Source: an uncultured Caryophanales bacterium
GTDB lineage: Bacteria > Bacillota_I > Bacilli_A > RFN20 > CAG-449
Length of the DNA: 51,953 bases
Direction of reading: 5' to 3'
Assembly: GCA_945929875.1 (NCBI GenBank)
Contig: CAMEOO010000005.1
Coordinates: 1 to 51,953 of the forward strand
Below are positions 17,859 through 51,953 of this stretch, one piece after another. The translations under genes were made by a program, and so were the position numbers. How positions within the stretch are numbered: the first letter of the stretch is position 1; the number at the start of each line of letters is the position of its first letter. The notes under the pieces were generated by a model. That model searched no databases. It saw only the letters and a program-made list of their open reading frames with translations, and was not told the origin of the DNA.

Positions 17859-18467
17859 TCACCTTTCTACTATACTATATACCTTTTGAAAACCTTTTGA
17901 AATAATTTTCACATTTCCATTAGTAATATTTTTTAAATCATTAAGATTTAAATAGATGCAAGAATAAGTAATTATTACTTCTTCCTCATAGCTCACATTA
18001 ACAATATTTCCATTTGCTTTATCTAAGTAATTTTTCACAATTTGAAAAAGTGAATAGCTAGTGACTATATCAAATAATTCTTGCTCTTCTATACGATAGA
18101 TTTTAGCAATATCAAAAACATTTTTTGAAGAATCGACATAGGCTCTAATTAAGCCTGAAGCCCCTAATTTGATTCCGCCAAAGTATCTTACGACAATACA
18201 GAGGATATTTTCTAATTCTTTGTTTTTTAAGAATTCTAAAATCGGTCTTCCCGCCGTGCCGCTAGGTTCACCATCATCATTACTTTTTTCTTTTCCATCT
18301 ACGATGTAAGCATAACAATAGTGCGTAGCTTTAGGATATTCTTTTTTTATCTCTACAAGAATGCTTTTTGCTTCTTCAACACTTTCAATAGGTGCAATTA
18401 TAGCGTAAAACTTAGATTTGTTAATCTCTGTAAGTTTCACATATTTTTCTTTAATTCTAAGACTCAT
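17859..18467 (-). CDS. YigZ/IMPACT family protein
   Basis: KSKFYAIIAPIESVEEAKSILVEIKKEYPKATHYCYAYIV, SNDDGEPSGTAGRPILEFL, VVRYFGGIKLGASGLIRAYVDSSKN. Confidence 0.95.
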   Translation of the reverse strand: MSLRIKEKYVKLTEINKSKFYAIIAPIESVEEAKSILVEIKKEYPKATHYCYAYIVDGKEKSNDDGEPSGTAGRPILEFLKNKELENILCIVVRYFGGIKLGASGLIRAYVDSSKNVFDIAKIYRIEEQELFDIVTSYSLFQIVKNYLDKANGNIVNVSYEEEVIITYSCIYLNLNDLKNITNGNVKIISKGFQKVYSIVER

Positions 18468-21400
18468 AAATTAATCTATCTAATGGATTTGAACTTGGCT
18501 TATCAAAATCTATACCTACAATCTTATTTCCTAAATATGATTTATTTTGATTTGCTACATATCTATTAATTACTTTTCTAATCAATGATGATTCAATATT
18601 GCACTTAGCAATATCAACAATTGCTTCTAGCGATGATTCATTAGAAATACCATTTAATGTTTTAATATCATTATTGAATTTTACGACCTCACCAATATCG
18701 GTTGAGCCATTTCCTAACCATTTATCATATGTTTCTGTATTATTTGATAAACGGTTGTTTAATTCATAAAGATCATTTGCATAAAGAAGTCCCTGGAATC
18801 CTTCATTTTCTGTTTTATCAACTAAAACTATGAATAAGTTTTCAAATGAAGTCAGATTTGTTCTAATGATAGAGTTATCAACTTTTAAGATTAATTCTGA
18901 AGAATTAAAGATCTCTGAATTATGTAAAGCAAATAACATAGTTGAAAGAATAGAATTTTCTTTATTTTCGGTTAAATCTAAGACCGAATTGATATCACTA
19001 CTAAACTTGCTTGAATTAACATAAAGAGTATAGATTGAATAAACTTCGTTTAATCGAGCTTTTTCTTCTTCATATCTATTTACATATTTTTCATTATTAT
19101 CGATATAATTCATTTTATCGATGGCATTATAATCACAATATGATTCGTTAAACAATGATTGGAAAATATCACTTTCGCTATTATAAGAAATTTGTTTTAA
19201 TCCATTAGAAACAATCGGACCAACAAGACTACGTAAAGGATACGCTTTCATTACAACATTTAATAATTCATTAAAGTCATTATTATCTAATGAAGTCAAA
19301 TTATTGATGCTTGTAGAATATACAAATACTCTAGACAAGTTATAAATTTCTCCATAATATCCGCTAGGATTTTCTGTACAAGACCAATTAACTTTTATTG
19401 TACTATTATAATTAACGATATCTTTTTCAAATTTAAAATCAGCTTCACTATCTTTTAAAGCTTCTGTAGAAACTAAAGAACTATCTTTAAATATATTTTG
19501 TATTGTGCTATATAATAATCCTTGCATATCGATAGATTTAGTATCATTAATCGAATTTAATAAATTATAAGCTTTTGATTCACCCATAAAATATTTAGGG
19601 TAGCTTCCTTCATAAGTAGAATACTCTTCTTTATCATCAGTAAATTCATATTCTTTTAGTAATCCTGTATCACAATTTTGAATTAATATAGAAATATCTG
19701 TTTCAGAATTTGTTCCTTTGACTTCATTGATTGCATTTAAAGCTTTAGATAGATTTTTTCCTTCTTCTTCAAAAGAATCAATATTTTCAAAATTTACAAA
19801 TCCTTTTAAAGATTCATTTGAATCAAACATTTTATTTAATGTATTAGGTAATGCTTCTTTCATTAAAATAGATTCATCAACGCTAGAAAAGATTCTTTCG
19901 ATCTCATTGCCCATATCAAATAAATGATTATTGATATTCATTGAAGAATTTTTTAGATAATCAAACAAATATTCAGTAGATCCTAGTTCGTCATCTTTAT
20001 CAATTGAACCAATAACATTAAATAGGGAAATTATTTCACCATCGCCTTTTTCATTAACCCATCCTTTTATTGAATCTTCAATTGATAAAATACTATCTTT
20101 TTCAATTGAGAATAAACCATTAGTCATTGTAGGAATATTTAGTGAAGCATCTTCATCTTCTTTTAAAGGAGAGAAAATAGAAATCATGATATTTTCAAAA
20201 TTAGTATTTTTATCTTCTTCTACTAATTGATTGTTAAGTATTTGACTAGCATAAATTTTTTCAAATAATTTAGCAACATCAGTTGAATTCTTGACAACAT
20301 ATTCTAAATTGAATGTTTCAGCAGATAATATTTTATTTGCACTTGGAATAACTTCATCAACTAAGTAAGTAAATTGTTTTGCAAAATTGGTGTCTTCAGT
20401 AAATTCATTAAAGTTTAAATCACCAACAGTTAGATTCATAAATATAGGCGTATCTTTTTCTTCGCTAAGCATGTCGCTTATGACATTAGGAACAACGTTA
20501 TTAATGATAACTGATTGTTCCATATTTTCACCTATATAAGATAAAGCGAGATTAACTCCACTTCCCTTGTCTCCAATAGTTTTAAATACATCTTCAGAAT
20601 TAGCTAAGTCATTTGTAGCGACTATTAGAGGAAGAGCTAAAGATAGCATAGCAGAAAGTTCTTTTTTCCAATCGTTGAAAGATAATTTAGCTAGATTATC
20701 TTCAATTGAAACAAAGATTGATTCGTCTTGTCCTAATAAAGAGGTAAATAAGGTTTTAACAAACTTAGACATTAAACCAAAGTCATCTAAGAATAGATTT
20801 GAAACTTGTAAATTAAGTAGTCCAGTAGTGTTTTCATTAAGTCCTAATATTCCATTTGTGCCAGGAATATCTACTCCATTATATTTTCCTCCATTAAGGA
20901 AAACATTATCTTTAAATTGATCTTTAGTTGTATAGGAGATTGAATTATCGTATCCAAGGAATAATTTAATTGGATCAAAGTTTTCTAACGTCGTCATTAA
21001 CTCTTGAATAGAAAAATCTTGTTTTCCTTCAATAGATTTAACTTGATCAACCATATTAAACATAATTCCAATTATAGAAGAAAGTTCATCACCCCATCTA
21101 ATATTCTTATAGGTTTCAACATTATAAGCTTCTTCAGGTAAATTTTTAAATAAATCTTTATAATTTACCTTGTTTTCGCTAGTTTCACTACCTTCTTCTT
21201 CAGATAACCTTCTAGATTTCATAGTGGATACTTCACTTTCTGAAGAAGCATTATTCATGCTTTTAAAATAGCTTACCATTACTTGAGGAAGTAAAGTCGA
21301 AACAAAGGAAGAATCGCCAATTCTTTTCATAGCGTCTTTTAAATAAGTTTCATTTTCTTTACTTATTATTATTTGATTAAGAATATCATCAGGCGAAGAC

Positions 21401-22533
21401 ATAGCGATTTGGATATATCCAGTAGATTTGATTGCTTCAAATACATCTCCAACTGCTTTTAATGAATCAGACCAGTCGACATTACTTAAATCAATATCAG
21501 ATAAATCTATATCTAAATTTTCTTTACTAGAATTTAGTCCAATTGAAACAAATAAAGGTAAAGCAAATAAAACTAATGTGGAATCAGAAAGAGTATAAAT
21601 GACATTTTTAATTAATGTAGAATTTACTAAAATATCATAATTTATCGCCATAGTAGATAAATCTATTGCTCCAGTAGAAATAGTTTCATAAACAATGGCT
21701 AATGATTGGCCTAGTTCATCGTAGAAATGGAAGTCGACTCCTTCTCCTACCTTTGTCAAAGTAACATAATCCATTATTCTAAAGTCGATAGATTTCCCAT
21801 TAGAAGATAAAGAGAAGAGAGCTTTTGCAAGAATTGAATTATTATATCCATCCAAAACATTATAAACAAGATCGTATGATTCATTATCAACTTCTTCATT
21901 TTTAACAATATTTCCATTTTCGTCACGAATCTTCCCAACAGTTGAATTCACCATTGCAGTCAAAGGGTTAATGAACATGCAAAAGATAATTATAAATTCT
22001 ACAAAGCCAGATAATCCACCTAGTAGTCTAAGTTTTCGTTTTCTAAGAACTTTGGGAATAATAAGTTTAAATAAAAGATAAAATAAAGGAATTAAAATAG
22101 ATCCTAAAATTAGAACAACTATCAGTAAAACAAAATATAAGATAAAACGAATAACTGATAGACAAATACCTGAAGCAAATGCAACGATTTCTGCATTTGA
22201 ATAATCAAGGTTTGCATTAGTTAGGGCAGTAACAATATTATATTCAACTAAGTCTCCAATCGATTTAATATCTTCGCTAGGTAAGGAAACATTCGATTGA
22301 GATAGAAGAGAACTAATATCTAAGTCGTAGAGCCAATTGCTTATCGGTTTAAGTAATAATATCATTCCAATCAAAAGAACGATTGTACACACTAAAGTGA
22401 AAGTTTGAAGCCAAAAGCCTTTTATTAAACCAATAAAAAATCCAATAAGGCCTATCGCAGCGATTACAAGTAACGCTAGATTAACATAATTAGTAATCTG
22501 GCCTGAAGAAATGCTTGCAAGAATAAAATTCAT
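18457..22533 (-). CDS. Giant membrane protein (about 1358 aa) with CvpA-like N-terminal TM region and long hydrophilic extension
   Basis: GFFIGLIKGFWLQTFTLVCTIVLLIG and further TM helices through LLGGLSGFVEFIIIFCMFINPL, then about 1100 mostly hydrophilic residues. Start revised from 22569 to ATG 22533 preceded by GGAGGG. Confidence 0.75.
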   Translation of the reverse strand: MNFILASISSGQITNYVNLALLVIAAIGLIGFFIGLIKGFWLQTFTLVCTIVLLIGMILLLKPISNWLYDLDISSLLSQSNVSLPSEDIKSIGDLVEYNIVTALTNANLDYSNAEIVAFASGICLSVIRFILYFVLLIVVLILGSILIPLFYLLFKLIIPKVLRKRKLRLLGGLSGFVEFIIIFCMFINPLTAMVNSTVGKIRDENGNIVKNEEVDNESYDLVYNVLDGYNNSILAKALFSLSSNGKSIDFRIMDYVTLTKVGEGVDFHFYDELGQSLAIVYETISTGAIDLSTMAINYDILVNSTLIKNVIYTLSDSTLVLFALPLFVSIGLNSSKENLDIDLSDIDLSNVDWSDSLKAVGDVFEAIKSTGYIQIAMSSPDDILNQIIISKENETYLKDAMKRIGDSSFVSTLLPQVMVSYFKSMNNASSESEVSTMKSRRLSEEEGSETSENKVNYKDLFKNLPEEAYNVETYKNIRWGDELSSIIGIMFNMVDQVKSIEGKQDFSIQELMTTLENFDPIKLFLGYDNSISYTTKDQFKDNVFLNGGKYNGVDIPGTNGILGLNENTTGLLNLQVSNLFLDDFGLMSKFVKTLFTSLLGQDESIFVSIEDNLAKLSFNDWKKELSAMLSLALPLIVATNDLANSEDVFKTIGDKGSGVNLALSYIGENMEQSVIINNVVPNVISDMLSEEKDTPIFMNLTVGDLNFNEFTEDTNFAKQFTYLVDEVIPSANKILSAETFNLEYVVKNSTDVAKLFEKIYASQILNNQLVEEDKNTNFENIMISIFSPLKEDEDASLNIPTMTNGLFSIEKDSILSIEDSIKGWVNEKGDGEIISLFNVIGSIDKDDELGSTEYLFDYLKNSSMNINNHLFDMGNEIERIFSSVDESILMKEALPNTLNKMFDSNESLKGFVNFENIDSFEEEGKNLSKALNAINEVKGTNSETDISILIQNCDTGLLKEYEFTDDKEEYSTYEGSYPKYFMGESKAYNLLNSINDTKSIDMQGLLYSTIQNIFKDSSLVSTEALKDSEADFKFEKDIVNYNSTIKVNWSCTENPSGYYGEIYNLSRVFVYSTSINNLTSLDNNDFNELLNVVMKAYPLRSLVGPIVSNGLKQISYNSESDIFQSLFNESYCDYNAIDKMNYIDNNEKYVNRYEEEKARLNEVYSIYTLYVNSSKFSSDINSVLDLTENKENSILSTMLFALHNSEIFNSSELILKVDNSIIRTNLTSFENLFIVLVDKTENEGFQGLLYANDLYELNNRLSNNTETYDKWLGNGSTDIGEVVKFNNDIKTLNGISNESSLEAIVDIAKCNIESSLIRKVINRYVANQNKSYLGNKIVGIDFDKPSSNPLDRLIYES

Positions 22534-22664
22534 ATATTTACCCTCCATTATATCTTTTATTTTTACCAATTAATTAGTATAATATTTCCAAAAAGTATAT
22601 ACTTATAATAGCATATGCTAATTTATTTTTAAATAAATTATATAAATATTATTTTGGAGGTAAT

Positions 22665-34616: not shown

Positions 34617-37600
34617 TTAGACTAAATCTAAACTAGAATATTTCATCATTTCAACGCTTGGCATTGAAGAATAATCTAAATCTACTCCATAACTATTCAA
34701 AGTAAATTGTCCTTCTGCTTTGACTACTTTATAAATAGAAACGTCAATTCCTAATGTTTTTAAATAATATTCTCCATTATAATTAACTAAGCCAAATTTC
34801 AATGTTGTTCCATCGTCAAATATCGAAGCTACACATCCTAAATTTACTCCAAGAGTATAGTTTAGTTTATCTTCACTTACTGAATAACTATTAATAGCAT
34901 TATCTTTCTTTGACGCTGCAATTGAAGAGCCTGCAAACTTATCGATAAAGGATTGATCAAATTTAGTTAACCATACAAATGCGTTTAAAAAATCATTTAA
35001 GAATGCTTCTTGAGAGGAATATGACAATGTTTCATACATCATTGCATTTCCATATGTTTTTATTCCTAGCCAATTAGTTCCGGTCACTTTCCAAGTTTCG
35101 TATTCTCTTCTACATAACACTGTTCCATCTTTAGATAGATAAATATAAGAAGTAATATAATCGCCTCTAACTCCACCTTCTGATTTACTTAATGATCCAA
35201 GGGCAGATTTACCATCAGTAATTAATGAGTTTGTATCAGTAGTAAGTTTTATATATCCACTAGGAGTACCATTTTCATCAAGTTCAAGAAGGAGTTTATC
35301 TACTTTCATTCCAAGTTTAACTAAACTGATAACATTTAAATTAATTGTACCACTGAGATCATACTTACAAGCGTTTATCGTATTCATTGCGCCATTTGAA
35401 AGAATCTCCAAATCACTTAGATAAATGCAATTATCGGTAGAAATTGTAAAGTCTACATAATCATTAAAGTGCAAAGAACATTCATATGAATTCTTTTCAT
35501 CAATGGTTCCTACCCCATCTATTTGAATAAACTTCTTATCATTTTCATTAATATAGTGGCTTATAGTTCCATCAAAGTAATTATCAAATTTACAAATGAC
35601 ATTATCTTCTTGAACATCTAGGAATAATTTGTCATTTAATCTTAGTCCTAAAACTACTTTTAATATAGATACAAATTGATCAAATGAATTAATACTAGCT
35701 TCATCAAATGCACTAGAATCATCAAATGATAAGATGACACTTGGGTCAAGTTCTAATATATTTTTGATTACTCTCATCACTTCTAGATTTAAGCCATATT
35801 TTCCATTATTGAAAGGACCTTGGGCTAATTTAGTTAAAATGACATCAATCGCTCTCGCGGCATCTGATTTTGCCACATAAATATTTAAACCGATTAATTG
35901 GTTATACATTACATTGTGTAAATAAACAAAATTATTTTGATAAGAAATTGTTCCAGTAAATATTTGACTTCTAGTTAATACTTCAGAAACTAATTTTTCC
36001 TCATCCAGAGTCAATGTAATAGTAAGCTTAGCGTTATCTTTATCAGTATAATCATATTTAGCTATCGCATCGATATAATATGAAATATCGCTACTAGAAA
36101 ATTTCATATTCAAATCAAGGTAACCTTGATCTAAATAGAAGTAATCTTTAGCATCTTGGCAATACTCGATAATCTTCTTAAAGTCATCGTAAACTAAATA
36201 ATCTAAAGAATCATCTACTTGAACAACATTGTTAAATTCTTGAAGAATAGCATTTGCTTCATAGAAATCTGACGATAATAAGTATCCTAGATCTGTTGGT
36301 GAAACTTCAAAACTATAATTTGAGTTGTCAAAGATGAAGTTAACCAATAAGCCGTTTTCTTTTGATTTAATCGCGGAAATATATTCAGATAAATAGTATA
36401 CTGCTTCTGAAATTTTATTTTCTTCTTTCGTTTGATTTGGTGAATAATCAATCAATACATTAATATCTTCTATTAATAAATCAATATCATTTAAAGATAA
36501 CTTAGCTAAAATACTTCCATATTCAAAATAGATTACATCATTAATATATGTTAGAACAATAAGATGATTATTTCCTTGATATTCGATATTCAAATCAACA
36601 GAAACATTCATATTAGAATCAATTTTTATGGTTGAATTAAAAATCATATCTTCAATAACAAAATTTAATTCTACTAGATAGCCTTCATAATCAAGAACAT
36701 CAAAGATCATATTAGTAATCCAGGTGAAATCACTAGTCACATCGACATAGACGTAATCATCTTCCCTAATTATCTTACTTATTTCATAGTTAGATGAAAT
36801 TACTAGGTTTACAGAGTAATCTTCATAGATGAAGTTAACTTTGATATCACTATTTTCTTCTTCTATATAGCTTACTTGATAGTTTTCATAGCTAAATAGA
36901 TAGCCACCTGTAGTTTTTTCTACATCTAAACATGACAAGTATTGTCCATTAATAATATCTTTTACTAGTTTAATTACATCGATATTTGTTTCTACTTCTT
37001 CAGCATTAAAGACTTGATCATAGATTCCTAGATTGTATCTTTCATCGATTACTTTAAAGCTATTCTTTAATGAATCAATTAATATTGTTTCATCATTTTC
37101 TACTAGATACTTAATTCCTACTTGATAGTTATCGTATCTTACTTCTAAGTAGACATTATCTTCTACTTTAGAGATTTCTACTTCGATAGTCTTTTCTTGA
37201 TAGTTGACGTTTAACTTACTATAGATATTATCTTTTCCTAAGTAAATTACTTCACCACTTATTCTTACTTCATTGATAATTACATCAAGAAGTCCATTTA
37301 AGTGATTATTTGTATAATCCTCATATATACGTTTTGACATATCGACGATTTTGTTAAAGTCATCTAGACCTAAGTAGGATTCTTCTACCACGATACTTTC
37401 TATTACTTCTTTACTTTCACTTAAGTGTAAGACTAATTCATATAAATCAGTAACTGTTAATGTTAAGCCTTCATTATATGTTAAGTTGACGTTATAGACT
37501 TCTTCACTTACATTAAAGACTAATGATAAATCATTACTTAGAGTAATAGATCTAACGTATTCACTTACTTTGATAATACTTTCATTTACCTCTGAGCTTT

Positions 37601-40600
37601 GGTCTTTACTAATTAAATTAGAAATAGATGTAATTACTTCATCTAAATCTTCTTCATTTAGATAAATTTCTAGATTCTCAAAGTTTACATAGACCTTATT
37701 ATCTACATATTTAATCACTAGATCATAACTATTTTCTTGATGGCTTACATTAATAGAAAGGACGACATTTAAGTTCTTATCAATAGTTGCTTCAAAGTCT
37801 ACTTTAATTCCTTCATAGACTAAACTACCTTCTACTAGATAGCCTTCATAATCAAGAACATCAAAGATCATATTAGTAATCCAGGTGAAATCACTAGTCA
37901 CATCGACATAGACGTAATCATCTTCCCTAATTATCTTACTTATTTCATAGTTAGATGAAATTACTAGGTTTACAGAGTAATCTTCATAGATGAAGTTAAC
38001 TTTGATATCACTATTTTCTTCTTCTATATAGCTTACTTGATAGTTTTCATAGCTAAATAGATAGCCACCTGTAGTTTTTTCTACATCTAAACATGACAAG
38101 TATTGTCCATTAATAATATCTTTTACTAGTTTAATTACATCGATATTTGTTTCTACTTCTTCAGCATTAAAGACTTGATCATAGATTCCTAGATTGTATC
38201 TTTCATCGATTACTTTAAAGCTATTCTTTAATGAATCAATTAATATTGTTTCATCATTTTCTACTAGATACTTAATTCCTACTTGATAGTTATCGTATCT
38301 TACTTCTAAGTAGACATTATCTTCTACTTTAGAGATTTCTACTTCGATAGTCTTTTCTTGATAGTTGACGTTTAACTTACTATAGATATTATCTTTTCCT
38401 AAGTAAATTACTTCACCACTTATTCTTACTTCATTGATAATTACATCAAGAAGTCCATTTAAGTGATTATTTGTATAATCCTCATATATACGTTTTGACA
38501 TATCGACGATTTTGTTAAAGTCATCTAGACCTAAGTAGGATTCATCGACAACTGGAATTACTATTTGTTGAGCATATTCTTTTAGATCAATTTGTAACGA
38601 ATAGAAGTCAGTTACTTCTAAATGTAAATTTGAATTATTATATTGAACGTTAATTTGATATTCTTGTCCTTTAACATCAAAAATTGATAGAATTGAACTA
38701 GAATCAATTTGAATGTTTTTAATGAATAAATCAATTTGAGTTAAGGTATCTAAAACATATTGCTCATCCAATTGAATAGATGACATAGAAATATATTTAG
38801 ATAATTTTTCATAAATTGATAGAATGTCGTCTCCATTAAAGAAGAAATCTAGATTGCCAAATTTGACTATGATATTTTCACCATAATAGTAAACAATTAC
38901 ATTTTCTTCTTTATCTTCTGATTTAAAGATTAGATCAACATAAGCATTCTTATATTGATCAAATAAAATTTGTGATTCGACTACGATTCCTTCATAATCA
39001 ACTGACAAATCAATTTGATATCCAAGATAATGGATAATTTCTTTAGATGATTTCATTAAATCGATAAGTGAAGAAACGCCTGAAACATTGCAATAAACTT
39101 TAGTTTCATCAACTAAATATGTATCATCATTTTCTCTTAATGAAAAGAATAAAGAGTTTTGACTATCATTATAGGTTAATTTACTATCACCAATAGATAG
39201 ATTAAATTTGTCGTAAGTTAATAGTAAGTCTTCAGAAATACTTATTGAAAGAAGTTTGTCATAGTCACTTTTTACGATATTTTTAACTAAAGAAACTATG
39301 CTATCTTTAGATGTATCTATTTCTGGAGTAGTAATGTTTTCACCATAAGCTTCGTTAATAAATAAGATTAACTCTTCAACTAAATTATATGCATCATCAT
39401 TTTCTAAAACAAACGAAACTTCAACATCCTTATAGTTGACATCAATATATGTTCTATCTTTAATCAAAATTGAAATAGGAATGATTCTGTCTTGAATTTT
39501 AATAGATGAGATTATCTTATATTCTTTACCATTTCTAGAAATAGTACCAAATACTTGATATTCATCTAAATATGAATATACAAAGTTAGCTTTAAGGTTA
39601 GATGAACTAATTTGGTTATAAATATTTTCTATATTGCTATATACTTCTTCAAATTGTTCATTTGTTAAATAATTTGTTTCATCGATTGTTTCAATAGTAT
39701 CAACCTTATTTCTAACTTCTAAAGAGAAAGTCAATAAGGAAGAAGTGCAATTCAATGATACTTTTTCATTTTGATTGTAATTAAAAGTAATTGGATAGTA
39801 AGTACCATCTAATAAAATGGTAGTTACTAAACTATTTTCTGAGAAAGAAACACTTTCAATAACTAAGTTGATATTTTTAATTATAGAAACAAGAGAATCA
39901 GTATCTATTTGTTGGTCTTCACTTTCAAATATATTTAATAATTTATCTAAATATTCATTTAAATCTTTTTCATTACAGCATACTTTTATATTCCCATGCT
40001 CAAGATAATATGCGTGTTCTAGATTAGTAATCTTAATTTCTTTTTCGCCTTCATCTGTTTTAATAAATAGTAAATATTGACTGTTTCCATTTTGATCAAA
40101 TTGACAAATTAAATCAAAATCTATTCCTTCATAGTTTATATTACCGCTTAGAAGGTAACCTTGGTAATCTTTTAATTCTAAGTACGCATCTAAAATAAAT
40201 GACGCATAATGGATATTTTCAATTGGAGTATAATATATATCTTCATCTAAAACATAAGTAAAGTCTTCTTTATAAAGATCAAAGTTACAGCGGATTTCAT
40301 TATTATCAAATACAATATTTGTGGTGTCAGAATCAGTTAATGTAAGCTTGTATGTATCATAGTTAATGGAAACAACTAAGTCGTTAACATCGATACTAAT
40401 TATTTCTTCAAAGTTATTTTCAAGAAGCAATGTTACAATATCTTCTAAAGTAATATTCTCTTTAGAAAAGATTTGAGTAATATATTCTCTTATCTCATTT
40501 TCAAAATTAATTCCATAATATTCTGAAATTGTAGAGATGATAGTTTCGCTTAATGAATTTACTTGGTTTTTGTTAAATACAAATGATAATTCTACAAAGT

Positions 40601-42854
40601 CATGAACACATCGACAATAGCAATAAGAGCCTTCAATATAAACTTCTATATCAAAGTTAAATTCACCTTGAGAATTGCTCTTCATCAAGATCATATCATC
40701 TTTAACTTGGATAGACAAATTAGTTGTTGTATTTGACGCATCTATCTTTCCATTTAAAGAATAATCGTTTCCTTCTATTAAAGAATAAACTTTTTGATAA
40801 AACCTATACATGACGTTTAAGTCTTCTTCGTCTAGATAAGTAGATTCATCTGGCAATATAATTTCCCTATTATTCTTTGTAACAAATAGATTTAGGTTTA
40901 AATCAGAGCAATTTAATTCTACCCCTTCTTCTAAATATGGGCTAATAGATACTTTATAGGAATTATCTTCTTGTCCAAATTGAATGAATAATTCTCCTTC
41001 TTGGCTTGCTTCAAGCGAAGTAGAAATACCACCAGAGAAGCTAATTCCTTCTAATAAAGAGTTAATATCTATATCTTCATCATTAATAATCTCTAAAAGT
41101 TTATTAGTAATAGAGATAAGATTATTTTCATTCGCACGTACTTTTAAATTTCCATAATTTAAATAATAATCATCATTTATTTTTGTTAAATTGATAGTTT
41201 TCTTAGTTTCTTCATTTAATTTGCTAAAAGAAATATTCAAAGAAGCGTCACTTGTTTGAGAAGTGATTAAATCAATTTCAAAATCGATTTCATTATAAAC
41301 ATAGTTACCTTTAACTTGATAAGCTTCATAATCAAGTAGAGAAAATAAGCGATCAACTAATACGCTAGTGGAAGAAAGATCGCTAAATTCTTTATCTTTG
41401 ATATCTTCACCTTGATAAGTACTTTGAGCGTCAACACCAATTGTTACAATAGTTCCATTATAAGAAACGGAGCCATCCATAGAAATTAGATTCAAGTCTT
41501 CTTTGTCAAAATACAAATATGCATCTAGATCTAATCCTTGAGTTGAGGCTTTGATAATTACTTTTGCTCTTTCTTCCTCTTCAACTAAATCCATATTTTC
41601 CATGATTTGATTGATAAAATCTTCATAATCAAAGCTAGTTTCCATTTCTTCAAAAGAGGAAGTATCAATAGAAGAAGAACCAAATTTACTAATTAAATTA
41701 CTAATCACGTTATTGATGAATTCTTCGTCGACAGAAAAATTAAGTCCATCAATAGAAGCGTATGCATTTCCATTATAAAAACGAATGAAATATTTATCTT
41801 CGATATTGACATTTACTTCATTTTTATTTAATAAATTCAATTGAACTTTCCCTTTATATTTTCTCTGGTTATAGCAAAGATCAATATCAAAGCTATTCTT
41901 ATTGGTCAGCATGCTAGTCATCTCTTGAAGGTAAGTCAAAGGCGTTTTATTTTCTTCATTAATGACTTCGTTTCCCGTTTCAGCATCAAAATACTTTGAA
42001 TAGAAAGATACGATTCCTTGATCGATTTGTTTTCCATACTCAAATACTTCATTTAAAACTGATTCACAGGTTGCATCTACCACTCCAATGCCAATATTCT
42101 TTTTTATTGAATAACTTTCTGAAGTAACTAAATTTAAAACTTTCCAAGAAGGATCAATCGTAATATCAACATGGATATAGTAATAAACTGGATTATCTAA
42201 TGCGCCACCTAAAGTAACTATTTCCCTTTTAGAGTTGATTGCTCCTAAATCATTTAAATCGACGTGAAGAACATAGTTGTCACCTATTTTTTCCATAGAT
42301 GAAGTTTCTTCTATAGATTCCTCACAATAATAATATGAGTTTAATTGATCTGGCATCGATCCATAATTTGTATAAATATATTCTCTAGTAACTGGGTTTA
42401 CTTTATCGCTCCATTTTACTTCGTTAATATTTTTTGGTGATCCTTGAAGGATAAACACTTTATCTTTGTTATAAAACTTTTGCGTAGCTACCTTTACCAT
42501 ATTTGAATAAGAAATAGCTTCTTGGTACATATAGTTTTTATCGACAATTCTAGTATTTCTAACTTGTTGAGTTACATTAACACCAGCTTTAGAAACAACA
42601 TCTCCACTAGTAGTAGCTTTCCAATTTCGACTATTATACAAATAGCCAGAAGCATACTGAATGTTTTGTAGAATTGAATAATCTCCTGGATTTCCATTTT
42701 TTGGAGGAGTTACTACTTCTGTAATGTTTTCTAAATTAAAGTCTCCTTGATCTATAGGCCCTTGGTTAGCTTTTTTTGACATTGAAAAAGTATAGGCGCA
42801 TAAACTGACGCCTATGACATTTAAAATAGCTAGCAAGATCATTGATTTCTTCAT
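34617..42854 (-). CDS. Giant exported repeat protein (2745 aa)
   Basis: N-terminal hydrophobic signal/anchor (MKKSMILLAILNVIGVSLCAYTFSMSKK); recurrent motifs YL..(D/E)(D/Q)F, (Y/F)GYL..G...Y.GI.F, YL..GN(I/L)KV; no catalytic motif recognised. Confidence 0.85.
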   Translation of the reverse strand: MKKSMILLAILNVIGVSLCAYTFSMSKKANQGPIDQGDFNLENITEVVTPPKNGNPGDYSILQNIQYASGYLYNSRNWKATTSGDVVSKAGVNVTQQVRNTRIVDKNYMYQEAISYSNMVKVATQKFYNKDKVFILQGSPKNINEVKWSDKVNPVTREYIYTNYGSMPDQLNSYYYCEESIEETSSMEKIGDNYVLHVDLNDLGAINSKREIVTLGGALDNPVYYYIHVDITIDPSWKVLNLVTSESYSIKKNIGIGVVDATCESVLNEVFEYGKQIDQGIVSFYSKYFDAETGNEVINEENKTPLTYLQEMTSMLTNKNSFDIDLCYNQRKYKGKVQLNLLNKNEVNVNIEDKYFIRFYNGNAYASIDGLNFSVDEEFINNVISNLISKFGSSSIDTSSFEEMETSFDYEDFINQIMENMDLVEEEERAKVIIKASTQGLDLDAYLYFDKEDLNLISMDGSVSYNGTIVTIGVDAQSTYQGEDIKDKEFSDLSSTSVLVDRLFSLLDYEAYQVKGNYVYNEIDFEIDLITSQTSDASLNISFSKLNEETKKTINLTKINDDYYLNYGNLKVRANENNLISITNKLLEIINDEDIDINSLLEGISFSGGISTSLEASQEGELFIQFGQEDNSYKVSISPYLEEGVELNCSDLNLNLFVTKNNREIILPDESTYLDEEDLNVMYRFYQKVYSLIEGNDYSLNGKIDASNTTTNLSIQVKDDMILMKSNSQGEFNFDIEVYIEGSYCYCRCVHDFVELSFVFNKNQVNSLSETIISTISEYYGINFENEIREYITQIFSKENITLEDIVTLLLENNFEEIISIDVNDLVVSINYDTYKLTLTDSDTTNIVFDNNEIRCNFDLYKEDFTYVLDEDIYYTPIENIHYASFILDAYLELKDYQGYLLSGNINYEGIDFDLICQFDQNGNSQYLLFIKTDEGEKEIKITNLEHAYYLEHGNIKVCCNEKDLNEYLDKLLNIFESEDQQIDTDSLVSIIKNINLVIESVSFSENSLVTTILLDGTYYPITFNYNQNEKVSLNCTSSLLTFSLEVRNKVDTIETIDETNYLTNEQFEEVYSNIENIYNQISSSNLKANFVYSYLDEYQVFGTISRNGKEYKIISSIKIQDRIIPISILIKDRTYIDVNYKDVEVSFVLENDDAYNLVEELILFINEAYGENITTPEIDTSKDSIVSLVKNIVKSDYDKLLSISISEDLLLTYDKFNLSIGDSKLTYNDSQNSLFFSLRENDDTYLVDETKVYCNVSGVSSLIDLMKSSKEIIHYLGYQIDLSVDYEGIVVESQILFDQYKNAYVDLIFKSEDKEENVIVYYYGENIIVKFGNLDFFFNGDDILSIYEKLSKYISMSSIQLDEQYVLDTLTQIDLFIKNIQIDSSSILSIFDVKGQEYQINVQYNNSNLHLEVTDFYSLQIDLKEYAQQIVIPVVDESYLGLDDFNKIVDMSKRIYEDYTNNHLNGLLDVIINEVRISGEVIYLGKDNIYSKLNVNYQEKTIEVEISKVEDNVYLEVRYDNYQVGIKYLVENDETILIDSLKNSFKVIDERYNLGIYDQVFNAEEVETNIDVIKLVKDIINGQYLSCLDVEKTTGGYLFSYENYQVSYIEEENSDIKVNFIYEDYSVNLVISSNYEISKIIREDDYVYVDVTSDFTWITNMIFDVLDYEGYLVEGSLVYEGIKVDFEATIDKNLNVVLSINVSHQENSYDLVIKYVDNKVYVNFENLEIYLNEEDLDEVITSISNLISKDQSSEVNESIIKVSEYVRSITLSNDLSLVFNVSEEVYNVNLTYNEGLTLTVTDLYELVLHLSESKEVIESIVVEESYLGLDDFNKIVDMSKRIYEDYTNNHLNGLLDVIINEVRISGEVIYLGKDNIYSKLNVNYQEKTIEVEISKVEDNVYLEVRYDNYQVGIKYLVENDETILIDSLKNSFKVIDERYNLGIYDQVFNAEEVETNIDVIKLVKDIINGQYLSCLDVEKTTGGYLFSYENYQVSYIEEENSDIKVNFIYEDYSVNLVISSNYEISKIIREDDYVYVDVTSDFTWITNMIFDVLDYEGYLVELNFVIEDMIFNSTIKIDSNMNVSVDLNIEYQGNNHLIVLTYINDVIYFEYGSILAKLSLNDIDLLIEDINVLIDYSPNQTKEENKISEAVYYLSEYISAIKSKENGLLVNFIFDNSNYSFEVSPTDLGYLLSSDFYEANAILQEFNNVVQVDDSLDYLVYDDFKKIIEYCQDAKDYFYLDQGYLDLNMKFSSSDISYYIDAIAKYDYTDKDNAKLTITLTLDEEKLVSEVLTRSQIFTGTISYQNNFVYLHNVMYNQLIGLNIYVAKSDAARAIDVILTKLAQGPFNNGKYGLNLEVMRVIKNILELDPSVILSFDDSSAFDEASINSFDQFVSILKVVLGLRLNDKLFLDVQEDNVICKFDNYFDGTISHYINENDKKFIQIDGVGTIDEKNSYECSLHFNDYVDFTISTDNCIYLSDLEILSNGAMNTINACKYDLSGTINLNVISLVKLGMKVDKLLLELDENGTPSGYIKLTTDTNSLITDGKSALGSLSKSEGGVRGDYITSYIYLSKDGTVLCRREYETWKVTGTNWLGIKTYGNAMMYETLSYSSQEAFLNDFLNAFVWLTKFDQSFIDKFAGSSIAASKKDNAINSYSVSEDKLNYTLGVNLGCVASIFDDGTTLKFGLVNYNGEYYLKTLGIDVSIYKVVKAEGQFTLNSYGVDLDYSSMPSVEMMKYSSLDLV
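36669..37382. repeat. 714-bp direct repeat, copy 1 (within giant repeat gene)
   Basis: Line-by-line comparison shows identity to 37830-38543 with no mismatch found. Confidence 0.95.
37830..38543. repeat. 714-bp direct repeat, copy 2
   Basis: Identical to 36669-37382; offset 1161 bp (387 codons). Confidence 0.95.
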
Positions 42855-48198: not shown

Positions 48199-48837
48199 TT
48201 ATTCTTCAAACAAATCTTCTATATTGCATCCAAGTGTTTTAGATAATCTAAACAATATGTCTGCTTGTGCTTTGTTAATATCGTTATGTCGTTGTTCATA
48301 CATTTGTATATTACGAATTGATACTTCTGCTTTTTCAGCAAGTTGTTTTTGAGATAAGCCTGCAGCTGTGCGGATTCTTTTAAGATTTGTTTCCTTCTTA
48401 TGCGCATCAATATATTCGTCTGCAACAAAGAAGAATTTTGTAATATCTGCTTCGTGAAGAGTATCGTATAATGCCAAAACCTTTTCAATAGGGAATGCTT
48501 TGTTTATATTAAAGAAAGACGTTGCTTTATAATTTTGATATTGCGCTAAAGCCCAACCCGCCCAATAAAATTCGGAACGGCTAAAAAACGGCTTAGGTGC
48601 AGGCAATCTACCATTTGAAGCAGTTGTGTTTACAACGAGGTCTAATAAATCTATTGCAGAATATCCAACTAAAAATCTTGGATTGCCTTTTTCTATTTGT
48701 TTCGCCACTTCGGAAGAGGCAAACATATTCCAATATACTTTTGGTTCGTAGCCACAAGCCACTGCGTATTCAAACATTGTACCGATATTCGTAGCAACGC
48801 TATCTAAATATCTAACGTCATAAGATTTTATCGCCAT
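48199..48837 (-). CDS. HTH (XRE-type) protein with N-terminal domain; predicted antitoxin/repressor
   Basis: C-terminal TNLKRIRTAAGLSQKQLAEKAEVSIRNIQMYEQRHNDINKAQADILFRLSKTLGCNIEDLF; 20-nt overlap with upstream DUF3990 gene. Confidence 0.8.
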   Translation of the reverse strand: MAIKSYDVRYLDSVATNIGTMFEYAVACGYEPKVYWNMFASSEVAKQIEKGNPRFLVGYSAIDLLDLVVNTTASNGRLPAPKPFFSRSEFYWAGWALAQYQNYKATSFFNINKAFPIEKVLALYDTLHEADITKFFFVADEYIDAHKKETNLKRIRTAAGLSQKQLAEKAEVSIRNIQMYEQRHNDINKAQADILFRLSKTLGCNIEDLFEE

Positions 48838-49489
48838 TTTTGAGCCCCTTTCTAATAATATCCATTACAAATAAGCCGTCCGACACCAAGCTTTGTCTAT
48901 GACCGCTTAAATAAGTTTCTCTTGCCTTCTTATCACGGCTAACTCGTTTTACGTAATATTCCTTACATTCGGCTAATTCGTAACTTATATATTTTACCGT
49001 ATTAAACGCTTTTTTAGACTTTAATACGATTTGAATACCCAATTCACCAAGACGCATAGCTTCAGCAAGTTGTTCAACGGAAATAGTGTTGTTAATAAAA
49101 TCCTTAGCAAAGCTAAAATAAGAGTCATCTGCACGATAACCTATAATTACATCATACTCTTCCACGTCAACGTAAAAATTTTCTAATATATATTCTTTTG
49201 CTTGTGCTGAAATAGGGGTATTAACGTCAAACGTTCTAAACTTCAATAAAAGTGCCATCCAATTAAGGATAGAGTATTTTTCATCTCTTAAATCTAAAAC
49301 TTTATAATCACTTAAATCAATTTCATATTGATTAGCATATCCGTTTGTTTCGTTGTTAGAACAAGCCCATTCTTTTGCAAGTTCAACATTTTCAGTACAG
49401 TAAAAGCCTAACCCGTAATCATTCTTCTTATTGCCCTTACCGAATTCGGGTTTTTCAATAATATCCTTTGAACCGTGATAAATAATCAT
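48818..49489 (-). CDS. DUF3990-family protein, predicted ADP-ribosyltransferase-fold toxin
   Basis: MIIYHGSKDIIEKPEFGKGNKKNDYGLGFYCTENVELAKEWA (ART-like H and Y motifs) and LGIQIVLKSKKAF (candidate third-position Q). Confidence 0.75.
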   Translation of the reverse strand: MIIYHGSKDIIEKPEFGKGNKKNDYGLGFYCTENVELAKEWACSNNETNGYANQYEIDLSDYKVLDLRDEKYSILNWMALLLKFRTFDVNTPISAQAKEYILENFYVDVEEYDVIIGYRADDSYFSFAKDFINNTISVEQLAEAMRLGELGIQIVLKSKKAFNTVKYISYELAECKEYYVKRVSRDKKARETYLSGHRQSLVSDGLFVMDIIRKGLKNGDKIL

Positions 49490-49512
49490 AATAAACCACC
49501 ATCCTTGTCAAC

Positions 49513-49541
49513 ATTATATCATTAAAATGTCATCTTGTTAA
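49513..49541 (-). promoter_or_regulatory. Promoter of the DUF3990-HTH operon
   Basis: Reverse strand TTAACA (49536-49541), 17-bp spacer, TATAAT (49513-49518), 24 bp upstream of the ATG. Confidence 0.7.
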
Positions 49542-49582
49542 TATATTATGCCCCGAAATTTAAAGCTATCATTAAAATGATA
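49517..49582. promoter_or_regulatory. Pair of operator-like sites, TATCATTAAAATGTCA (49517-49532) and TATCATTAAAATGATA (49567-49582)
   Basis: Second copy has 7-bp inverted arms TATCATT/AATGATA; first overlaps the spacer and -10. Confidence 0.6.
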
Positions 49583-49682
49583 TAAAAATTTGTAAAAGAA
49601 AAAGACCTCAGATGGAATATCTAAGTTCTAATTTTCTTTTGACCGCTTGAAAGTGCAATTTCCTATAAATTTTTAATGTTTC

Positions 49683-49702
49683 AAAAAATCCCTTACAGGG
49701 AA
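49683..49702 (-). terminator. Rho-independent terminator of the LRR surface protein gene
   Basis: Reverse strand TTCCCT-GTA-AGGGA followed by T6, downstream of stop at 49734. Confidence 0.7.
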
Positions 49703-49733
49703 CGCCTTTGTCCATATTTTTTTATTCATATAA

Positions 49734-51953
49734 TTACCCCCATAAAACGATAGTTCCTTCATCATCATAATGCCAATATGAGAATAAATTATCTGTTGGT
49801 TCTTCTTCTGAGTAAATATATACTTTAGCATTCTTGAAAACTTCATTTTCTAAGCTAATTATGATACTTGTAAATTCATCGATAGTCCCTTTAAAATAGA
49901 TTGCATCTAACGAACAATTCTTAAATGCTGAATAATTGACCCTTTCGATAGGATATAAGACTATGTAATTCAAAGTAAACCCTAAGTATTGATACTTTCC
50001 AATTTGATCTACATTATTAATTGTAAAGTTATTCACTTCAACATAAACGCTATTTTCTTTTGCATAAAAATGATTTGCGTAGTACATTGGTGAAGAAGTT
50101 TCACCCTCTAGAGAAATCATATTAAATTTCTCTCTTGAGCCAGCATATTTAACTGTCTTTAGATTAGTACAATTCCCAAAAGCTCCAATTTGAATAGAAG
50201 TGACTTTCGCATGAATAGTAATCGAAGTCATAGTATTAAATCCATAGAATTGGAATTTACCAATTTTGGTCATTGAAGAAGCTACGCTAACTTCATTTAG
50301 CAATACGAAATTCTTATTGGAATCGTAATGATATAATCTTTTAGCATAACACATTGGATTACTACTCTCACAAGCGATAGAAATCTTGCTCCAATAGACG
50401 ATTTTCTGCTTGTAATAGACTTCTTCTAGTAAGTTTAATCCATCAAAGCAAGCATAGCCTAAAGTAGTCAAGGAAGCAGGTAGAGTTATCGTAATAACCG
50501 CAGAGCAATTAGTAAAACAATATTTCCCAATTTTTTTAAATCCGTCATTTAAGGAGATTTCTTGAAGTGAAAGGCAACCATAAAAACTATAATCTCCAAA
50601 AGAAATTAAACCGCTACCAAAAATGATTGTTTCGACATTTGAGCAATTCTTAAAAGCCGAATTTAATACTTTAGTAACGTTGTTTCCAATCTCTAACTTC
50701 GTAATTTGTTTAAGCCCAACAAATTGATATGGATTAATGATAGTTACTTCTTCAGGTATTACTAATTCCTCAACTAGAGCAAAGTTATCTTCTTCCTTTA
50801 TATAGTAATTTTCTGCATAATTCATCGGATTGGAAGATTGGCTAGAGAAAGAGATTCCACACCACGAAACAATGTCTCCTAAATAATAGACATCTTTTAA
50901 ATTTATTAAGGAGTAAAAAGCATTTTTTTTGATTTTAGTAATATCTTGATGCAAGGTTAATGATTCTATCTGCGTAAATCCATAGAATTGATAATCTCCA
51001 ATAATTAGCGTATCATTAGGAATTACTAATTCTTTTATCAAAAGATAATCATCTGACTCATTCTTCAAATAAAAATTAGTTGCATAAAACATCGGATTTG
51101 AATATTGGCTAGAAAATTCAATTTGACACCAATTTAATAAAGATCCTTGATAATAAACGTTTTTAACATTAGCAAATTTCTTCTCTTCTACTTGTATTCT
51201 AGAAATCTGATATCTAACACCATTAAATTCCTTAAATACCGGAAGATATAAATCTTGGCTAGTGCCTAAATAATCAACAATTGAGATGATTTTGTATTCA
51301 TCAGATATCAAATTATATTCAAATTCGTCACTAGATTTAATGGTCATAGTTGCTTTTAATGGATTTACTTCTTCAAAATTTCCCTTACCATCAAAGGTTG
51401 CAATTACTTCATATTCACCGCAATCAGTTTGATTATTATTTACATATACTACTTCTAACCCTTTTGGTAAATCACCTTTTACTTGTAAGTTTTTTTCTGC
51501 TCCATCAAAGAAGAATTCTTCATCTTCAAAAATAAGTTTAGAAGAATCAAATGTTCTTTTGGTAATAGTTAATCTAGCGCTTATTGATTTAGGGAGAATA
51601 TAATTATCATTTGTACTATAAAAGTATGCGTTTATTAAATATTCTCCTGCATTAATTAAATTTGTTTTATCAAAGATAACTTCTACGTCCGAAGGAACTT
51701 CTTCATTGATGTAAAGGTTATGTTCTTCTCCATCATAAACTACTTCTTGATCATCCATTGTAAAGTCTAGAACAATCTTTTCTTCAGAAGAAGACTCAGA
51801 ACTATCCGTTTCACTTGAAGTGTCTTCGCTACTAACTTCACTTGAAATATCTTCACTACTTTCTTCACTAGAAGTCTCCTCACTAGTTGCTTCACTTGAT
51901 ATATTATCACTAGTATCTTTACTAGTTTCTTCACTTGATATTTCACTAGTATT
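49734..51953 (-). CDS. BspA-like leucine-rich repeat (LRR_5) surface protein with MBG-like domains and Ser/Glu/Thr-rich stalk; N-terminus beyond window
   Basis: Repeats such as YYLGDIVSWCGISFSSQSSNPMNYAENYY...ELVIPEEVTIINPYQFVGLKQITKLEIGNNVTKV; VVYDGEEHNLYI...NAGEYLINAYF MBG-like; frame stays open from 51758 to 51953 (NTSEISSEETSKDTSDNISSEATSEETSSEESSEDISSEVSSEDTSSETDSSESSSEEKIVLDFT). Confidence 0.85.
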   Translation of the reverse strand, partial: NTSEISSEETSKDTSDNISSEATSEETSSEESSEDISSEVSSEDTSSETDSSESSSEEKIVLDFTMDDQEVVYDGEEHNLYINEEVPSDVEVIFDKTNLINAGEYLINAYFYSTNDNYILPKSISARLTITKRTFDSSKLIFEDEEFFFDGAEKNLQVKGDLPKGLEVVYVNNNQTDCGEYEVIATFDGKGNFEEVNPLKATMTIKSSDEFEYNLISDEYKIISIVDYLGTSQDLYLPVFKEFNGVRYQISRIQVEEKKFANVKNVYYQGSLLNWCQIEFSSQYSNPMFYATNFYLKNESDDYLLIKELVIPNDTLIIGDYQFYGFTQIESLTLHQDITKIKKNAFYSLINLKDVYYLGDIVSWCGISFSSQSSNPMNYAENYYIKEEDNFALVEELVIPEEVTIINPYQFVGLKQITKLEIGNNVTKVLNSAFKNCSNVETIIFGSGLISFGDYSFYGCLSLQEISLNDGFKKIGKYCFTNCSAVITITLPASLTTLGYACFDGLNLLEEVYYKQKIVYWSKISIACESSNPMCYAKRLYHYDSNKNFVLLNEVSVASSMTKIGKFQFYGFNTMTSITIHAKVTSIQIGAFGNCTNLKTVKYAGSREKFNMISLEGETSSPMYYANHFYAKENSVYVEVNNFTINNVDQIGKYQYLGFTLNYIVLYPIERVNYSAFKNCSLDAIYFKGTIDEFTSIIISLENEVFKNAKVYIYSEEEPTDNLFSYWHYDDEGTIVLWG

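Follow-up and report, generated by a model that had tools for sequence, protein, structure and literature searches.

An exact 714-bp repeat in a giant exported protein of uncultured Bacilli probably records recent homogenization within an ancient domain array

In a giant gene of an uncultured bacterium, there is a pair of long identical DNA segments, which raises the question of whether the pair arose by duplication, gene conversion or assembly error, and whether it serves as a switch of protein length. The window (the whole stretch of DNA analysed, 51,953 bp) is the entire contig CAMEOO010000005.1 of an uncultured Caryophanales bacterium, whose genome comprises 77 contigs. The host is an uncultured, gut-type Bacilli lineage. 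The initial annotation reported a base-for-base match between 36669–37382 and 37830–38543, and our comparison confirms it, with 0 differences over 714 bp, an offset of 1161 bp (387 codons) and a spacer of 447 bp. The match cannot be extended past these boundaries, and the window contains no other exact repeat of at least 30 bp. The open reading frame encoding P0001 contains both copies, in frame (Table 1). None of the ~137 synonymous sites between the copies is changed, giving a 95% upper bound on dS of ~0.022, and a chance origin of the identity is excluded. Furthermore, the tract was found neither in the rest of the source genome nor in seven other genomes of the genus, ruling out a mobile element or a dispersed copy. 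Elsewhere in the window are a 1370-aa open reading frame with no Pfam match (18457–22569) and, at 48199–51758, an HTH protein adjoining a DUF3990 protein (with an ADP-ribosyltransferase-like match) and a BspA-type leucine-rich-repeat protein.

The array of P0001 is composed of five units of ~387 aa, each formed by a half-unit A (~175 aa) and a half-unit B (~210 aa). Outside the tract, the units are only ~12–30% identical to one another. Specifically, different A halves share ~15–30% identity and different B halves ~12–24%. The only hydrophobic segment of P0001 spans aa 1–26, and the protein contains neither an LPXTG-type (sortase) motif nor a C-terminal hydrophobic segment. P0001 has no significant match in Pfam, NCBIfam or PDB sequences. 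To judge from its sequence, P0001 is an N-terminally membrane-anchored exported protein built as a chain of ancient, diverged domain repeats. The first description of the gene product as a surface protein is thus only partly supported, by the N-terminal membrane segment and the exported-type domains but not by a sortase motif.

Table 1. Features of the P0001 gene, in window coordinates
Feature	Position	Strand	Basis
Giant gene P0001 (2745 aa): membrane segment, N domain, five-unit array, C-terminal region	34617..42854	-	ORF and translation
N-terminal region, aa 1-491 (anchor and N domain), conserved order-wide	41382..42854	-	Alignment; 151/279 genomes
Repeat unit 1: A1 aa 492-667, B1 aa 668-876	40227..41381	-	
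Repeat unit 2: A2 aa 877-1056, B2 aa 1057-1255	39090..40226	-	
Half-unit A3, aa 1256-1435, upstream flank of tract copy 1	38550..39089	-	26% identity to A4 outside the tract
Tract copy 1, aa 1438-1675: B3 and first 25 aa of A4	37830..38543	-	Exact 714-bp match
Unlike spacer of 447 bp, the remainder of A4	37383..37829	-	25% aa identity to the matching part of A5
Tract copy 2, aa 1825-2062: B4 and first 25 aa of A5	36669..37382	-	Exact 714-bp match
Downstream flank: remainder of A5, then terminal half-unit B5	35748..36668	-	Grouping of A5 and B5 with the final G007 unit
C-terminal region past the array, aa 2370-2745	34617..35747	-	Residue left after the units

The offset between the copies equals the period of the old, diverged array, so that the second copy occupies the corresponding position one unit further on. 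The tract comprises half-unit B3 (identical to B4) and the 25 residues that open the following A. Its edges fall on the YL motif that opens B (aa 1827–1828) and on the GY motif that opens the A strands (aa 1671–1672), both among the best conserved positions across 23 units. In codon-aligned windows, nucleotide identity is 100% inside the tract and ~40–60% in the A halves on either side, with 20-codon windows across A4 and A5 giving 38–60%. The copies thus display the pattern of a gene-conversion tract, namely exact identity in register that breaks off sharply where the diverged paralogous flanks begin.

Both a single tandem duplication and a single unequal crossover were rejected, because either would yield identity over 1161 bp, against the 714 bp seen. 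Of the initial proposal, a very recent duplication or gene conversion, the kind of event is therefore upheld and plain duplication is not, since just 714 bp of the 1161-bp period are identical and both flanks drop abruptly to the old repeat background, favouring conversion. A recent duplication of A4 and A5 was likewise considered, as the two showed 37% identity in a first tree; the apparent pairing was due to the 25 residues that lie within the tract, and it vanished (25%) once these were trimmed. In the tree, B3 and B4 share one orthologue, the third B half of G007, and A5 clusters with the final A half of G007, with A3 and A4 not pairing with A5. G007, the nearest orthologue, has one B of the B3/B4 type and one unit fewer; the other relatives are more diverged.

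We therefore consider it likely that the tract reflects a recent homogenization in an old array, in which units 3 and 4 underwent gene conversion or an equivalent exchange in two steps, with conversion being the type of event that we infer. In such an event, adjacent units would misalign and undergo homologous recombination, either as gene conversion or as an unequal crossover that a second crossover then compensates. One unit would have its half-unit B overwritten by a copy from the neighbour two domains away, in either direction; the opening 25 codons of the following A would be carried along, and the exchange would end at two motifs that rank among the best conserved in the unit. Recombination of this sort is an ordinary process in repeat arrays.

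An alternative explanation is that the full B–A unit was tandemly duplicated and that diverged sequence, derived from another array or strain, later took the place of A4. Relatives do vary in unit number, from 4 to at least 6, and one of them, G006, carries a true full-period duplication. However, this scenario requires two events, the second of which would have to swap almost exactly one half-unit and leave B untouched, and A4 appears as old as the other A halves (21–26% identity to A1–A3 and A5). Replacement of a duplicated unit is thus unlikely.

Comparison with relatives of the same genus, deposited publicly as metagenome-assembled genomes under the labels uncultured Bacilli, Bacillales or Erysipelotrichaceae, points to turnover of units in this gene. 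Scanning genome contigs with the single P0001 protein gave no match, while scanning them with the N-domain alignment matched five of the relatives' genomes. The P0001 locus and the loci of G001 and G007 are syntenic orthologues, comprising genes for IleRS, LspA, an RluD-type pseudouridine synthase, a short DUF6442-like protein and the giant protein, as well as an RNase HII/HIII-type gene on the strand opposite to the giant gene; the synteny is based on Pfam matches in the window and on the order and size of open reading frames in the relatives, with G007 compared downstream only. The full-length matches of P0001 to G007 and G001 extend over its C-terminal region. Between P0001 and G007, array units 1, 2 and last are orthologous by position, and the middle of the array is without clear pairing.

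In a comparison between species, with one genome per species, P0001 and G001 have five units, G007 and G005 have four, and G006 has at least six, the last being a lower bound because its contig ends inside the array. The homologue in G003 is short, with 1–2 units. In G006 (L012, 1–2742), there is a near-exact unit duplication with a period of 1296 bp, which starts at the same A/B junction as the P0001 tract. The differences in unit number and the independent duplication in G006 together indicate that unit gain and loss is recurrent in the giant gene. We infer that, over evolutionary time, recombinational exchanges would also change the array by whole units, gained or lost in frame; such in-frame gain and loss is plausible from the sequences and is supported between species. 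The expectation that recombination between the copies would delete or add 387 codons in frame follows from simple arithmetic.

The structure of the assembly bears on how the tract is to be read. The copy, or its exactness, might be unreal if a loop of the assembly graph had been traversed once too often or if strain variants had been merged. The window is a complete contig of a genome that, with its 77 contigs, is probably a short-read assembly, and in short-read libraries the reads and many of the inserts fall short of the 714 bp of the repeat. Minor differences between strains are masked by metagenome assemblers, which also often leave repeats that exceed the insert size unresolved (PMC8021871). 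A short-read assembly may therefore misjudge the copy number of a loop, and the strict 100% identity of the tract and the exact number of B–A4 units are both subject to assembly effects. On the other hand, all four junctions (A3–B, B–A4, A4–B and B–A5) are present, in frame and each joined to unique sequence. Since A4 is unique and is joined to B on both sides, at least one genome in the sample would be expected to have B in both places. In addition, near-exact units are also present in a relative from a separate assembly. An assembly artefact is thus quite unlikely. More generally, exact repeats in metagenome assemblies should be weighed against the period of the protein before they are called switches.

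The N domain of P0001, unlike its array, can be followed across the order: it was found in 151 of the 279 genomes, mostly in open frames of ~300 aa. In the other genera examined, the N-domain gene often lies directly upstream of a gene for a separate exported protein of 950–1140 aa, some of these proteins having weak matches to the A unit, while in the genus of the window the N domain and the exported repeat part form one gene. Neither the N domain nor the separate exported partner has a significant Pfam match. Two-gene N-domain loci are found at L082 (2572–6879), L083 (2604–6500) and L088 (3349–7104), often beside an HTH regulator gene. Long proteins that begin with the N domain and lack exact internal repeats are encoded in another family of the order, at L080 (3579–9809, 2076 aa) and L081 (3012–8690, 1892 aa).

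Structural models of the array were predicted with a mean pLDDT of 72 for the unit and 75.7 for half-unit B. Both models show a helix followed by six strands, helices and further strands, five in half-unit B. In a Foldseek search, the best PDB matches of the half-unit B model are LolA and LolB, with an E value of 3e-4 and a probability of up to 1.00, but a TM-score of only 0.28–0.39. Sliding-clamp matches obtained in a structure search with the whole two-domain unit were discarded as meaningless (TM 0.1). The likeness to the lipoprotein carriers LolA, LolB and RseB thus lies in the predicted helix-plus-beta fold of half-unit B; with sequence identities to LolA and LolB of 7–14%, there is no relation at the sequence level. 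The models therefore suggest that the half-units are LolA-like, which we take as a lead and not as membership. LolA is not chained, whereas the LolA-like domains of P0001 are, and the array may be a membrane-anchored chain of LolA-like domains of drifting length. A bolder proposal, which we regard as distinctly improbable, is that about ten LolA-like domains chained on the membrane, originating from fusion of the two-gene operon of several other genera of the order, form a conduit for lipids or lipoproteins or a stalk, the length of which is tuned by unit recombination.

P0001 also resembles the periscope proteins (SasG, Rib/alpha C, Sgo_0707 and CdrA; PMC8201768) in that it is long, exported and repetitive and has an N-terminal domain as well as exact DNA repeats through which its length could change in frame. 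Periscope proteins carry long tandem repeats of at least 80% identity, vary in length between strains and, in many cases, have a C-terminal wall anchor (PMC8201768). By analogy, frequent recombination might delete or add 387 codons of P0001 and maintain a mixed population. The 714 bp of perfect homology, the offset divisible by three and the variable number of units between species agree with this proposal, as does the finding that, in known periscope proteins, repeats change in number more readily when their DNA is highly identical (PMC8201768). However, the identical units of P0001 are confined to the single pair B3/B4, separated by A4, and the remainder stand at 12–30%, unlike known periscope stalks. 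Moreover, the anchor of P0001 is N-terminal, with no sortase-type cell-wall anchor at the C-terminus, in contrast to SasG, Aap, Rib and Sgo_0707. A periscope-like length switch is thus very improbable, and the tract does not imply a regulated switch.

The likely homogenization event is instead closest to concerted evolution by gene conversion in intragenic tandem arrays. P0001 differs from such arrays in that just one half-unit is homogenized, with no recent homogenization elsewhere in its array, but it shares with them an exact, in-register stretch, a diverged remainder and a unit number that varies among relatives. The locus would thus show recombination at work on an ancient domain array of an uncultured lineage, and it draws attention to a protein family that lacks a Pfam entry and differs in unit number between species.
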